Shown here piece after piece: positions 48,169-52,953 of a DNA stretch of 64,000 nt (its first letter is position 1; each line of letters begins with the position of its first letter). A program made the translations under genes and the position numbers. The notes beneath the pieces were generated by a model. That model searched no databases and had not been told where the DNA came from. It worked only from the letters and a program-made list of their open reading frames with translations. The stretch is taken from contig NZ_VFNC01000002.1 of the NCBI RefSeq assembly GCF_006715395.1, positions 3,827,070 through 3,891,069 of the forward strand, read 5' to 3'. Source of the DNA: Streptomyces sp. SLBN-31 (GTDB lineage Bacteria; Actinomycetota; Actinomycetes; Streptomycetales; Streptomycetaceae).

Positions 48169-48846
48169 TCAGGCGGCCGGCGGCCAGCCGTCCAGGTGCC
48201 GGTGGAGGGTGACGTCGGGCTGCACGTCGCCCTTCGGGGCGCCGGCCACGGCGTCCTTCAGGACCGCGTTGACCTCGGCGGCCAGCCCGTCGGCCTGCTT
48301 CTTCAGGTCGGCCGCGGAGACGGAGGACCTGGTCAGCGCGTCCAGGCGGCGGTGGATGTCGGCCAGCTTGCCCTGCGCCGCGGCGTCCAGGGTCAGGGGC
48401 CGGGGCGTGGAGACGACGAACTGGTAGGCGCCGGCCAGCGTCTGGCAGCCGGTGCACTCCTTGTTGGCGGCGTCACTGATGTTCACCGCCCGCAGGTGCG
48501 CGTGCTCTCCGGCGACGGTGACGATCTGGAAGGACAGCGCCACCGAACGGCAGGCGTCGTCTGCCGAGCAGCCGGCCGAGACGGCGTTGGCCTGGTTGCG
48601 CGCGCTGGCGGCGTTCACCGTTCCGAACTGGCGGATGGTGAACGAGTCGCGGGCCTGGGTGTGGTGCGCCCGGTCGACGTGGCTGAAGACGTGGTCCGAG
48701 ACCACGGCGGCATGCGTCACCCCGGTCGCGGCCTGCGCCGGTACGGCCGTCGCGGCACCGGCGACGCCGGCGGCGAACAGGCCTATGCCGAGGGCCCGGC
48801 GGGTCAACGGGTTGTTGACTGGTCGTGCTTTTCGATGACTGCTCAA
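48169..48846 (-). CDS. secreted protein of unknown function
   Basis: A 225 aa protein with a signal peptide (positively charged start, RRALGIGLFAAGVAGAATAVPAQA, cleavage near residue 40). The mature part has four cysteines in two pairs (GCSADDACRS and ECTGCQT), a beta-like first half and a C-terminal helical region (LADIHRRLDALTRSSVSAADLKKQADGLAAEVNAVL). The start is TTG at 48846, behind GAGGAG. It is on the same strand as, and 315 bp downstream of, the M50 protease, so it may belong to that locus. No family recognised. Confidence 0.68.
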   Translation of the reverse strand: MSSHRKARPVNNPLTRRALGIGLFAAGVAGAATAVPAQAATGVTHAAVVSDHVFSHVDRAHHTQARDSFTIRQFGTVNAASARNQANAVSAGCSADDACRSVALSFQIVTVAGEHAHLRAVNISDAANKECTGCQTLAGAYQFVVSTPRPLTLDAAAQGKLADIHRRLDALTRSSVSAADLKKQADGLAAEVNAVLKDAVAGAPKGDVQPDVTLHRHLDGWPPAA

Positions 48847-49161: not shown

Positions 49162-51072
49162 TCAGGTCGCCGCCGGTGACGCGCTGGCCGCCGGCGACGA
49201 GGGGGCCTCGGTGGGTGAGGCAGGCACGCTCTCCGAGGGGGTCGGCGACGGCTGCGGACCGGACGGGCCGCCGCCCGGGTCGGGGGGCGTCGGGGTCGGC
49301 CCGGTCACCGGGCCGTCCGTCCTGGACGACGACGAGCTCCCGCCCGGCCGGGTCGACCTGGAGGCCGAGGCCGAGGCCGAGGCCGCGGCGGACGCGCTCC
49401 CCGACACCCCCGGCGAGGGACTGCCGTGCAGTCCGGACGCACCGGGCGACGCCGACGGCGACAGTGAGGCGCCGCTTCCGGAGGAGTCCTGGGAGTCGTC
49501 CTCCCCCGGCGTCGAGGCGTCCTGGGGACCCGGAGGCTCCGTGGACACGCCCGGCTGCAGGATGGGCGCGATCGGCGGCTGCTTCGGCAGCGGCTTCGGA
49601 GTCATCCCGGACACCCAGGCGTAGCTGAGCCCGGTCAGCCCGGCCAGCGCGAGCGCGCAGACCACGATCCGCAGGCGGGGCCGGCCGGCCGTGGAGCGCT
49701 TGGCGGCACGGAAGAGCCGGCCGCCCAGCTTCACGGACAGATAGACGACACCCGCCATGGGGCACAGCAGCATGACGCAGCCGATCACCCCTACGAACCC
49801 CTCGGCGATCCGCCCGTCCCCGAACGCGGCCCCCGTACCGATGATCTGCTCGGTCAGCGACCGCGTCATCGTCGCCAGGATGCGCGGCAGGTTCCACAGC
49901 GCGTACCCCAGCTCGCCGACGATCAGCGGCACCATCGTCAGCACCCACGTGGCGACGATGTGCCGGGCCGACTTCTTCAGCCCCGCGACCTCCTGGCGGG
50001 CCGCCCGGCCCTTGGCGCCCGGCAGCAGGCTCAGCAGGATCGGCTTGATCTTGCCGTAGAGGTCCGGCACCCCGGCGAGGTCGCCCAGGATGTAGTAGCC
50101 GTCCAGCCGGACGGCCGGCATCAGCTGCTCGAGGATCTCGAAGTGCCCGAGGTACACCGCGGCCAGGAAGAACTGCATCCCGGTCGCGAAGTACGCCCCG
50201 GCCATGGCGAGCATGAAGACGACGTTGAAGTACACCCCGCCCAGGTCGGTGCGGATGCGCCCGCCCCGCCCGATCCGGTAGACGTCCGTCACGTCGGTGT
50301 ACATCGACGGCCAGATGAGGAACAGCCCGCAGCCGATGCAGCCGGGCCGGGCACCGCCGTACTTGCAGGCGGAGGCGTGGCCGAACTCGTGGAAGACGAG
50401 CGAGGCCACGGTCAGCACGAAGACGATGAGGATCAGTACCGGCTGGTCGAGGACCTGCAGGACCGGCTCGATCGCCCCGAAGAAGCCGAACAGCCACACG
50501 TCCATGGCCACCGCCGACAGCAGGACGGCCACGACGACGGCCGGCCGGTGCAGCCAGGCGAAGGCCGCGGCGATCCGCGCCGTCCGCTTCTCGTTGAAGA
50601 TGACCCGGTGGCCCTTGAGGGCGAGCAGCAGGTCGGAGCGCGGGGCGTCGACCTCGTCGTCCTCCTGGCCGGCGGGCACCGTCACGCCGAGCGGCTGGAG
50701 CTTGTTCTCCACCAGGTAGCGGACGTTGTCGCCGCTGACCTCGCGGCCGAACCGCGCGCTGACCCGGTGGGCGATCGTCTCGGCGTCGCGGACGCCGTCG
50801 ATGCTCGACGCCACCAGGTACAGCAGCCGGGACAGCTGCACGACCTGCCCGTCCCCCCGACGGGCGATGTACTTGGGGTCGGTGAAGCCCGATCCCTGGT
50901 ACTCGCCGTGCAGTTGCAGCCCCGCGCTCAGCCGCGGGGCCGGTTCCGGCGGCTGTTCGACGACGGGCAGCTTGCCCGTCGCGACCTGCTCGTAGGTCAC
51001 CGGCCAGCCGCCGGGTCCGGGCACCGGCCCGGTGTCGTACAGCGCCGTCGGACCATTGCCGAGCACTGTCAT
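49162..51072 (-). CDS. membrane M50-type zinc metalloprotease with N-terminal winged-helix-like domain and low-complexity tail
   Basis: A 636 aa protein. Residues about 60-135 (KYIARRGDGQVVQLSRLLYLVASSIDG ... GDNVRYLVENKLQPLGV) form a small helical domain, reminiscent of the PqqD/RRE-like N-termini of peptide-processing proteins. Six or more TM helices follow, with H228-E-F-G-H232 in a membrane helix and a third-ligand motif RLDGYYILGD (Asp324), the site-2-protease/YydH pattern. Residues about 500-636 are a Ser/Pro/Ala-rich extracytoplasmic tail. It probably cleaves a membrane or exported peptide. The twin small peptides encoded immediately upstream on the same strand are the natural candidates for substrate. 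ATG start at 51072. Confidence 0.82.
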   Translation of the reverse strand: MTVLGNGPTALYDTGPVPGPGGWPVTYEQVATGKLPVVEQPPEPAPRLSAGLQLHGEYQGSGFTDPKYIARRGDGQVVQLSRLLYLVASSIDGVRDAETIAHRVSARFGREVSGDNVRYLVENKLQPLGVTVPAGQEDDEVDAPRSDLLLALKGHRVIFNEKRTARIAAAFAWLHRPAVVVAVLLSAVAMDVWLFGFFGAIEPVLQVLDQPVLILIVFVLTVASLVFHEFGHASACKYGGARPGCIGCGLFLIWPSMYTDVTDVYRIGRGGRIRTDLGGVYFNVVFMLAMAGAYFATGMQFFLAAVYLGHFEILEQLMPAVRLDGYYILGDLAGVPDLYGKIKPILLSLLPGAKGRAARQEVAGLKKSARHIVATWVLTMVPLIVGELGYALWNLPRILATMTRSLTEQIIGTGAAFGDGRIAEGFVGVIGCVMLLCPMAGVVYLSVKLGGRLFRAAKRSTAGRPRLRIVVCALALAGLTGLSYAWVSGMTPKPLPKQPPIAPILQPGVSTEPPGPQDASTPGEDDSQDSSGSGASLSPSASPGASGLHGSPSPGVSGSASAAASASASASRSTRPGGSSSSSRTDGPVTGPTPTPPDPGGGPSGPQPSPTPSESVPASPTEAPSSPAASASPAAT

Positions 51073-51161
51073 GCGTGGTCTCCCCCCAGAGTCCTCGGCG
51101 CCTTCCCCGGACCCGCCGCTTCCCCCCGGAAGCGCGGCGGGTTCCCCCCGGAACGCGCCGT

Positions 51162-51201
51162 GGGGGCGGACCGGGCCGTCAGGTGCTCACGGTCCGCCCC
51201 C
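51162..51201 (-). terminator. hairpin between peptide 1 and the M50 protease
   Basis: A 12-bp perfect stem (GGGGGCGGACCG / CGGTCCGCCCCC) with a 16-base loop. A second short perfect stem, GTAGCGG/CCGCTAC (51213-51229), overlaps the peptide 1 stop codon. Partial termination here would give more peptide than protease. Confidence 0.65.
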
Positions 51202-51225
51202 TGGCCGCCTCGGTAGCGGGTGCCG

Positions 51226-51444
51226 CTACTGCTGGACGGTGATGTTCTGCGTCGCCTGCGACTGGGCGTCCGACCACGAGGAGTGGTCGTTCAGGGCCGC
51301 GGACTCGTTGTGCGCCGAGATGTGGGCGACGTGCTTGGTGACGTTGACCGTCTTGCCGAAGCTGAACTTCAGCCGACCCAGGGCCTCACGGCCCGGCAGC
51401 AGCTCGGCGCTCTCGGTGTCCAGCTCGCGCATGTCCATGCTCAT
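51226..51444 (-). CDS. small peptide 1, RiPP-precursor-like
   Basis: A 72 aa peptide. Its acidic N-terminal half (MRELDTESAELLPGREALG) looks like a leader; the C-terminal half is rich in Asn, His, Ser and Thr (KHVAHISAHNESAALNDHSS, ending ITVQQ) and has no cysteine. It is almost identical to peptide 2 from Glu11 to Ser58. ATG at 51444 with GAAAGGA upstream. Upstream of the M50 protease on the same strand. No known peptide class recognised; a modified, exported or signalling peptide is inferred. Confidence 0.75.
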   Translation of the reverse strand: MSMDMRELDTESAELLPGREALGRLKFSFGKTVNVTKHVAHISAHNESAALNDHSSWSDAQSQATQNITVQQ

Positions 51445-51496
51445 GACGGATGTCCTTTCGGTGTTCTCGGGTTGGTGGTGAGGTGGAGCGCGAGCG

Positions 51497-51712
51497 TTAC
51501 TGCTGGACGATGATGTTCTGGGCGGCACCGGAGTCGGCCACGGACCACGAGGAGTGGTCGTTGAGGGCCGCGGACTCGTTGTGCGCCGAGATGTGGGCGA
51601 CGTGCTTGGTGACGTTGACCGTCTTGCCGAAGCTGAACTTCAGCCGACCCAGGGCCTCGCGACCCGGCAGCAGCTCCGCGGACTCGGCCTCAAGCTCGTG
51701 GGCGTCCATCAT
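51497..51712 (-). CDS. small peptide 2, RiPP-precursor-like
   Basis: A 71 aa peptide and tandem duplicate of peptide 1, sharing a 48-residue identical stretch from ESAELLPGREALG through KTVNVTKHVAHISAHNESAA to DHSSWS. It differs only in the first ten residues and in the tail (VADSGAAQNIIVQQ for DAQSQATQNITVQQ). The first of two adjacent ATGs (51712) follows GAGGGGGA by 7 bases. First gene of the leftward unit; two palindromes 64-102 bp upstream are likely operators. Confidence 0.75.
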   Translation of the reverse strand: MMDAHELEAESAELLPGREALGRLKFSFGKTVNVTKHVAHISAHNESAALNDHSSWSVADSGAAQNIIVQQ

Positions 51713-51775
51713 GATCAATTCCCCCTCAGGGATGGGCACTTCCGATCAGACAGCGTCAGGTTCCCCCCGGACTCT

Positions 51776-51814
51776 GTCCAATCTGGTCGGACGGGCTGTC
51801 CAACGAGATTGGAC
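51776..51814. promoter_or_regulatory. paired palindromes GTCCRA-N5-TYGGAC between peptide genes and XRE gene
   Basis: GTCCAA-TCTGG-TCGGAC (51776-51792) and GTCCAA-CGAGA-TTGGAC (51798-51814) are 17-bp elements, 22 bp centre to centre, that is two helical turns. They lie between the leftward peptide genes and the rightward XRE regulator and are the best candidate binding sites for it. Confidence 0.7.
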
Positions 51815-51862
51815 ACTAGGGCCTCGCGGGGCCGATGCGCAACCCGTTCGGGGAATCACCCT

Positions 51863-51938
51863 TTCGGCGACCCCGGGACACGACCGTAGAATCGGCCCCG
51901 ACATGGACGGTCCAGCCGACACAGCCAGCAGGAAGTGA
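51863..51938 (+). promoter_or_regulatory. promoter and 11-aa leader ORF ahead of the XRE regulator
   Basis: TTCGGC (51863-51868), an 18-bp spacer and TAGAAT (51887-51892) form a plausible housekeeping promoter. An ATG at 51903, at leaderless distance, opens a mini-ORF MDGPADTASRK ending at 51938, 7 bases before the regulator's GTG. The mini-ORF also contains the regulator's AGGAAG ribosome site. Confidence 0.5.
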
Positions 51939-51945
51939 CCCACCC

Positions 51946-52344
51946 GTGGCCAACGCACTGCAGCAGTTGATCCGTGACCGCCTCGACCGCAAGGGCTGGT
52001 CCTACGGCGATGTCGCACGCCGCGGCGGCATCCCGCGCTCCACCGTCCACCACCTCGCCACCGCCGACCGCGTCGTCCGCATGCCCCAGTCGGCCACCCT
52101 GGAGGGACTGTCCAAGGGACTGGAACTCCCGTTGGACACCGTGCGCCGCGCCGCCGCCGAGGCCTGCGGCATCCACGTCTACGGCAGCCCCGGCGACGGC
52201 GACCCGGAGACCGCCGCCACCGATCCCGAGGTCGACCTGCTCATCGCCAGCCTCCAGAAGCTGTCGGCCGACGACCGCCGGCACGTGACCGCCCTCGTGG
52301 AGTCACTGCTCGACCGCTCGGCCCCTCGCGCACCGGAGAAGTGA
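51946..52344 (+). CDS. XRE-family DNA-binding regulator
   Basis: A 132 aa protein with an N-terminal Cro/C1-type helix-turn-helix (LIRDRLDRKGWSYGDVARRGGIPRSTVHHLAT, then ATLEGLSKGLELPLDTVRRAAAEA). A short linker and a C-terminal helix (DLLIASLQKLSADDRRHVTALVESLLDR) follow, the latter probably for dimerisation. GTG start at 51946 with AGGAAG upstream. It is divergent from the twin-peptide/M50 genes with tandem palindromes in between, so it likely regulates that locus and itself. Confidence 0.82.
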   Translation: MANALQQLIRDRLDRKGWSYGDVARRGGIPRSTVHHLATADRVVRMPQSATLEGLSKGLELPLDTVRRAAAEACGIHVYGSPGDGDPETAATDPEVDLLIASLQKLSADDRRHVTALVESLLDRSAPRAPEK

Positions 52345-52536: not shown

Positions 52537-52794
52537 GTGTTGTTCGTGCATGGCGGACCGGCCACGGCCGTGGTCCGCGGACCCGCCGGCCAATCGGTCG
52601 TCCTGCTCTCGGGCGAACTGCCCGAGGTGCTCACGGAGGGAGCGGTGGCCGAACTCGTCGACCTGGCCGCCGCGATCCTGGACGCCGAGGAACTGGAACT
52701 GTTCCACAGCTGTCTGGAGAAGCTGCGCGGCGGACTGCGCCCCGGCCGCCGCATAGAGGTCGACGGCGCCGTCCTCACCGTGTACGAAGGCTGA
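52537..52794 (+). CDS. small hypothetical protein
   Basis: An 85 aa protein: two beta strands (LFVHGGPATAVVRGPAGQSVVLL) and a helical region (GAVAELVDLAAAILDAEELELFHSCLEKLRGGL), then RIEVDGAVLTVYEG. No family recognised. GTG start at 52537, behind GGGGGGAAGT. It lies between the XRE gene and bldA; the 190-bp gap upstream contains the AT-richer AAAAAGAATTCAACTCG, probably its promoter. Confidence 0.6.
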   Translation: MLFVHGGPATAVVRGPAGQSVVLLSGELPEVLTEGAVAELVDLAAAILDAEELELFHSCLEKLRGGLRPGRRIEVDGAVLTVYEG

Positions 52795-52869
52795 GCCCTG
52801 CGCAAGGGCTGAGCCGTGCACGAAGGGTGACGGCCGGCCACGGAACGCTTCGTCCCGTGGGCGCGGTAG

Positions 52870-52953
52870 TGCCCGGAGCCGGACTTGAACCGGCACGCCC
52901 GCGAAGGGGCAGCGAGGTTTAAGCTCGCCGTGTCTGCATTCCACCATCCGGGC
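52870..52953 (-). tRNA. bldA: tRNA-Leu(UAA), the bldA tRNA
   Basis: An 84-nt type II tRNA. The acceptor stem is GCCCGGA/TCCGGGC with discriminator A. The anticodon arm GCGAG-CTTAAAC-CTCGC gives anticodon UAA. It has a long variable arm (TGCCCC-TTCG-CGGGCG region) and T loop GTTCAAG. CCA is not encoded. In Streptomyces this is the only tRNA reading UUA efficiently, and it controls translation of TTA-containing developmental and antibiotic regulatory genes. I noticed no in-frame TTA codon in the genes of this window. Confidence 0.97.

Follow-up and report, generated by a model that had tools for sequence, protein, structure and literature searches.

The window analyzed here is the whole 64,000-nucleotide stretch of contig NZ_VFNC01000002.1 (positions 3,827,070 to 3,891,069) of Streptomyces sp. 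SLBN-31, which has a 9.47-Mb genome and whose nearest relatives in these searches were Streptomyces; the system under study is a cassette of six genes that encodes two leader-bearing peptides and an intramembrane protease of the M50 family. On the minus strand, pepA (51497–51712, 71 amino acids (aa)) is followed by pepB (51226–51444, 72 aa) and then by the gene of a 636-aa M50 protease (49162–51072) with a domain resembling the RRE, the recognition element of ribosomally synthesized and post-translationally modified peptides (RiPPs); a 225-aa secreted CxxC beta-repeat protein with a TTG start is encoded on the same strand (48169–48846). An XRE-type helix-turn-helix (HTH) regulator of 132 aa (51946–52344, plus strand; HTH_3, 23.2 bits at a cut-off of 23) is divergent from these, and a conserved 85-aa gene lies at 52537–52794 on the plus strand. 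A preliminary description made from the letters alone had listed the twin peptides, the protease and the divergent XRE gene, all of which were found where it had placed them. It had also let the XRE gene complete the unit: the gene is indeed present and linked, but the unit is larger, as the genes at 48169–48846 and 52537–52794, which had gone unlisted along with a 19-bp palindrome at 51797–51815, belong to it too. No Pfam or NCBIfam family scored above its cut-off for either peptide, for the secreted protein or for the 85-aa gene, and Rfam gave no match at gathering scores over the whole window.

Peptides A and B have in common the sequence ELxxESAELLPGREALG (leader motifs at 51647–51697 and 51376–51426, proposed cores at 51500–51646 and 51229–51375, respectively) and end in VQQ. 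The acidic leader-like half and the Cys-free, Asn/His/Ser-rich C-terminal half that had been ascribed to them were seen in both; unlike this pair, some relatives do contain Cys. The window peptides are genuine genes. Among 58 distinct peptide-A DNA sequences, mean codon entropy in the leader was 0.09, 0.02 and 0.76 bits at codon positions 1, 2 and 3, and this concentration in the third position indicates a protected protein sequence, while the variation at all three positions in the last 29 codons (0.68, 0.60 and 0.70 bits) is in line with free core positions.

The alignment of 145 peptides gave the core pattern A.N.S.A.N..S..A/S.A.S.A.Q.I.V.Q, in which the written positions are invariant or nearly so. 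The 14 positions of the conserved face averaged 0.15 bits versus 2.19 bits for the 15 intervening positions, the two faces having been assigned post hoc with the alignment already in view. Only A, N, S, Q and I occupy fully invariant positions in the last 29 residues; farther upstream, the proposed core has an invariant Phe26, with Phe28 and Thr35 almost as constant. We read the alternation of fixed and free positions as the signature of beta strands, so that the cores would pack by one face. Twin identity in the central core was 0.85 within a locus versus 0.68 between loci and 0.67 for peptide A against peptide A, and the maximum of 2000 permutations was 0.73; such concerted evolution is as expected if the twins pack together. 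Curli strands display an alternating small/Asn/Gln pattern, and the cores resemble CsgA of curli and FapC of Fap in this respect. They differ from them in that the curlin Pfam repeat had no match at E ≤ 1 in the window peptides, nor in five long relatives and one short one, and in that Csg or Fap secretion genes were not recognized in the cassette.

The N-terminus of the protease, likened to PqqD and RRE domains in the preliminary description, was also predicted to fold as one (residues 43–134; 50671–50946, minus strand). In the structure comparison of this model the four best rows were leader-bound lasso B1 RREs and PqqD, and the predicted fold is the PqqD-like winged helix by which an RRE is recognized. 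The HEFGH zinc site noted earlier (residues 228–232; 50377–50391, minus strand) is invariant in 38 sequences, as are D, G and the first Y of a second motif, DGYY (residues 324–327; 50092–50103, minus strand), which gives the protein the HExxH and second conserved Asp motif of site-2-type M50 proteases, in a catalytic half that was modelled at low confidence. The Ser/Pro-rich C-terminal tail, likewise confirmed (49165–49608, minus strand), is presumably extracytoplasmic, and it is here that a CxxC domain is fused in other taxa. The protease scored 80.3 bits with NF041824, the daptide-type family (cut-off 300), and 39.6 bits with NF058609 (cut-off 225); a sequence search of the PDB with it gave no match at E ≤ 1.

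The 225-aa protein carries a signal peptide by eye and was linked in 62 of the 64 peptide loci having at least 4 kb downstream. Its repeat matches the peptide core in register (profile score 25.2, against at most 22.4 when columns were shuffled 200 times), and its AlphaFold2 model (pLDDT 81.9) contains six consecutive long strands, from which we read the protein as several core-like beta units, pinned by disulphides, followed by helices. The best rows of a fold comparison with this model were weak and non-significant, and included the amyloids FapC and CsgA, a second likeness to the curli and Fap systems at that same level. The 85-aa gene had a homologue somewhere in 71 of the 77 loci with at least 1.2 kb upstream, and so did the XRE gene, in 71 of the same number.

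The palindrome TGTCCAA-N5-TTGGACA, read as TGTCCAATCTCGTTGGACA on the peptide strand, sits upstream of peptide A and is the proposed XRE operator. Of 65 twin-peptide loci, the window counted, 57 have the exact 19-mer, as do 2 of 15 loci scored as single-peptide, a class that took in one masked locus (L017) and one at a contig end (L053) in which a second copy is partly visible. Half-sites numbered 61 in 891 kb of peptide loci, which equals the number upstream of peptides (58 + 3), and the palindrome occurs nowhere else in the 9.47-Mb genome at ≤1 mismatch. It is most naturally read as a dedicated operator that would be bound by the linked XRE protein. A wider regulon was considered and dropped, as the genome holds no second site at that stringency.

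A scan of sequenced genomes yielded 95 related places, of which 79 distinct loci were kept. The neighborhood check put forward in the preliminary description came out in favor of the association: an M50 protease gene was present in 73 of the 75 loci with 1.5 kb or more of sequence on the downstream side of the peptides, and in the two exceptions (L077, L081) a transposase-like gene, by eye, occupies its position. The peptides were found in 14 of 150 Streptomyces genomes, SLBN-31 included. We then compared six peptide-less Streptomyces genomes, chosen via a search for the tRNA region, over 18-kb stretches of the corresponding site; by tblastn at E ≤ 1e-8, all six cassette genes, the 85-aa gene among them, were not found in any of the six. 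At four of these sites (L218, L220, L221, L222) pobA directly abuts tRNA-Leu(TAA) and the ABC transporter, at L223 a Bax-inhibitor gene occupies the site without pobA, and at L219 the left side differs. On this comparison the cassette behaves as a single block of about 4.7 kb that is gained and lost as a whole.

A tRNA-Leu gene with anticodon TAA (52869–52953, minus strand), which from its anticodon we take to be bldA, stands at one border of the cassette with its 3′ end facing it, as at tRNA integration sites, but an integrase was not noticed within the cassette. Dependence of the cassette on bldA was considered and dropped, because its six genes contain no TTA codon.

Searching 396 genomes of the phylum with an alignment of ten trimmed proteases gave 28 matches of at least 320 bits in 25 genomes, all other reported matches scoring at most 136 bits. 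By the leader model, leader open reading frames (ORFs) occur at an independent E-value ≤ 1e-3 in 35 of the 42 distinct clade loci examined, three (L200, L203, L206) have weak ones (≤ 0.05), and in four (L197, L202, L207, L209) none was found; for the 28 proteases of the phylum sample the corresponding counts are 21 (window counted), 3 and 4. The model had been trained on 17 peptides, including some from the window, from its Streptomyces relatives and from loci counted afterwards (L111, L114, L116, L120, L123, L124, L129), and the CxxC model on eight sequences (L111, L113, L114, L117, L119, L120, L071 and the window); leader and CxxC counts were made on stop-to-stop translations, while gene calls at distant loci came from a codon-composition caller. 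Other RRE-M50 loci gave no leader match and no CxxC match in 36 records (34 distinct, L157 duplicating L087 and L159 duplicating L122), mostly within flanks of 1.5 kb, where many clade loci were wider; the clade loci with flanks of about 1.5 kb (L111, L136, L140, L143, L144, L148, L149) all have leader ORFs. Judged by their sequences, related units, in which the peptides bear LPx[RK]E leaders and the proteases form a distinct RRE-M50 clade, occur across Actinomycetota; in 14 of the 42 clade loci the protease itself carries the CxxC domain as a fusion.

The peptides of these units are related to one another, and in other taxa a locus may hold several paralogs. In hhalign, the Streptomyces peptides matched those of L114/L119 at a probability of 98.4 and the LPDRE peptides at 93.6, and the LPDRE peptides matched proteins of 211–387 aa at 98.7, with only 11 for the Streptomyces peptides directly against those long proteins. 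Stripped of their leaders, the Streptomyces and LPDRE cores still matched (score 21.8, against 16.1 for the best of 120 shuffles). For one LPDRE peptide, homologous protein clusters number at least 7,995, and none of the 120 listed bears a Pfam domain. Scans of long relatives and of CxxC proteins gave no Pfam or NCBIfam family above its cut-off; the long relative L123 had a sub-threshold gasdermin match (E 0.0057; 16.6 bits, cut-off 25).

Several further peptide types stand near these units. Small ORFs with an NA-rich stretch and an SSxQR pattern occur close to LPDRE peptides in L134 (3590–3751), L138 (39–266) and L142 (3679–3885). L121, L124, L128 and L130 carry a variant with ELLPER/ELLPDR leaders and Asn/Ser/Gly/Pro-rich cores in which, by eye, the alternating pattern is missing, adjoining the same protease clade; the CxxC domain was not detected there. 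Beside other RRE-M50 proteases, Ser/Cys/Ala-rich peptides with acidic leaders were seen in L106 (2745–3626), L108 (3455–4026) and L115 (5405–6055), clusters which from their sequences are perhaps thiopeptide-like.

Chaplins are functional amyloids of Streptomyces aerial hyphae, and a sibling branch of the system connects with them. Clade loci L204, L205 and L208 have the same kind of leader and a core like VQVPIGVAANVCG. With PF03777 (ChpA-C) the L205 peptide scored 15.5 bits, below the cut-off of 21, and the L204 and L208 peptides had no match. A search at E ≤ 1 gave 337 relatives of the L205 peptide; among 34 family members chosen from the 120 relatives listed, 30 matched PF03777 at E ≤ 1, and of seven scored individually one (P0364) reached 29.1 bits, above the cut-off, and six 13.7–18.2 bits. 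In P0362 and P0364 a signal peptide, by eye, replaces the leader. A chaplin-like core that stands behind either a signal peptide or an LPDRE leader argues more strongly than any other finding here for secretion at the end of the leader route and for a cargo that can be amyloidogenic. The window peptides share with this branch the kind of leader and the protease clade; they differ from it in that PF03777 did not match them at E ≤ 1 and that homology of their cores to the chaplin-like ones could not be detected. A comparison likewise gave no support for homology of the LPDRE or Streptomyces cores with chaplin-like ones, and, on the sequences at hand, the chaplin link is held for the sibling branch only. 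One leader-bearing chaplin-like peptide (P0357) has a source named as a Thermomicrobiales metagenome-assembled genome, and from this name the design may reach beyond Actinomycetota.

We propose, at an even chance, that the cassette serves to produce and release beta-strand peptides that stay unmodified and self-assemble in the manner of functional amyloids. The unity of the cassette, the RRE-like predicted fold, the alternation in the cores, the co-occurrence with the protease and the single palindrome on which this proposal draws were computed directly. In the cytosol, the RRE of the protease would bind the ELxxESAELLPGREAL leader, as the predicted fold and the co-occurrence suggest, and the M50 protease would then cut at about the boundary between REALG and core, upon which the core would exit the cell. 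Outside, each core would act as a two-strand beta unit, the twins stacking to form a fibre or a beta-solenoid, and the secreted protein would nucleate, cap or anchor the stack, a role that may also fall to the domain which other taxa have on the protease tail. The XRE protein would control expression through the palindrome. RRE-guided cleavage of the peptides is very probable from gene context and predicted fold, and secretion of the core is likely; amyloid-like or solenoid assembly is a reasoned hypothesis that could equally well fail. More tentatively, and at rather less than an even chance, LPx[RK]E leaders together with a leader-reading intramembrane protease may constitute an undescribed, widespread actinobacterial substitute for the Sec signal, releasing building blocks of functional amyloids that range from 70-aa twins to proteins of ~390 aa and include chaplin-like cores, the extracellular nucleating domain being either part of the protease or a separate protein secreted alongside.

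The same genes might instead encode an unmodified two-peptide bacteriocin, from which the protease removes the leader and whose twin cores act jointly on competitors, immunity being conferred by the secreted protein, the protease or the 85-aa gene. Co-evolution of the twins, the accessory distribution in Streptomyces, the dedicated local palindrome, the multiple paralogous peptides at loci elsewhere and the weak match of L123 to the pore-forming gasdermins would all suit such a system. We nevertheless consider it unlikely, as the conserved face of the cores carries small, polar residues (A, N, S, Q) and few hydrophobic ones, peptides of the LPDRE type are related to the 211–387-aa proteins of other taxa, and the cassette has no dedicated exporter; an immunity gene may be present unrecognized. 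The MacB/FtsX-type ABC genes nearby are also present at cassette-less sites, and no recurrent exporter appeared among the 25 most frequent Pfam families in 130 neighbor proteins of 30 clade loci (133 Pfam families in all, and 1016 of NCBIfam, of which the 25 most frequent were likewise considered). The commonest Pfam families there were LuxR-type regulators (6 of 130), histidine kinases (4) and ABC_tran (3), none exceeding six proteins.

Improbable to a greater degree is a true RiPP, whose core would be modified by an enzyme encoded elsewhere and whose M50 protein would be the leader peptidase, as in daptides. According to an excerpt of PMC10036551, MpaP of the daptide pathway is an RRE-dependent intramembrane peptidase, and daptides, like the cassette, combine an RRE N-terminal to an M50 protease (MpaP/DapP) with several short precursors having a conserved leader; the score with NF041824 relates the window protease to this leader peptidase, and the conservation of Phe26, Phe28 and Thr35 leaves room for modification there. 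However, as the preliminary description had held, no modification enzyme was recognized among ten scanned neighbors of the cassette, the nearby PobA and CMAS genes being present at cassette-less sites too, and no YcaO, radical-SAM or lanthipeptide family was among the 25 most frequent Pfam families of the clade neighbors. The fully invariant residues near the C-terminus are ones such as Ala and Asn, and the daptide hallmarks are missing: the excerpt gives the daptide leader motif as ELExMEAP, the window peptides have a different leader and end without a C-terminal Thr, the daptide enzymes and linked transporter were not found here, and the protease falls in a separate clade. Leader, C-terminus and the low NF041824 score together rule out membership in the daptides. 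The epipeptide protease YydH/LiaK (NF058609, by its name) is likewise an M50 protease acting on a small peptide, from which the cassette differs by its low score and by the absence of a radical-SAM gene among the ten neighbors. No description of the peptide family was found in the open-access literature, where mention in supplements is possible, nor in excerpts of PMC10036551, PMC12338566, PMC12710340 and PMC7470986.

M50 proteases are classic signalling proteases and a regulator gene is linked here, yet the remaining idea, that the peptides signal through or inhibit the protease and that its true substrate is another membrane protein, is highly improbable, as the peptides and the M50 gene are found together, the model of the protease N-terminus shows a leader-binding fold, some relatives of the peptides are as long as 387 aa and no sensor or anti-sigma gene was recognized in the cassette; of the two roles that the preliminary description had offered, maturation of the peptide by the protease is favored over inhibition or signaling.

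If a leader-reading M50 protease does deliver unmodified assembling peptides, genome mining by RRE has met a use of this domain outside RiPPs, and Gram-positive bacteria gain an additional means of building surface material. With chaplin-like cores occurring behind either a signal peptide or a leader, the delivery idea can be tested directly, and the cassette, a compact unit of six genes with one palindrome, can be cleanly moved and deleted.

Loci of a second type showed some features of their own. Small His/Tyr/Arg/Asp-rich proteins are encoded near L071 (4693–4929), L077 (4603–4821) and L081 (4647–4913), and by eye a sigma-70-like gene and a further HTH gene lie close by in L063, L065, L070, L073 and L081. 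In one genome, copies of this type (L065, L067, L077) are located near both ends of a 7.8-Mb contig.

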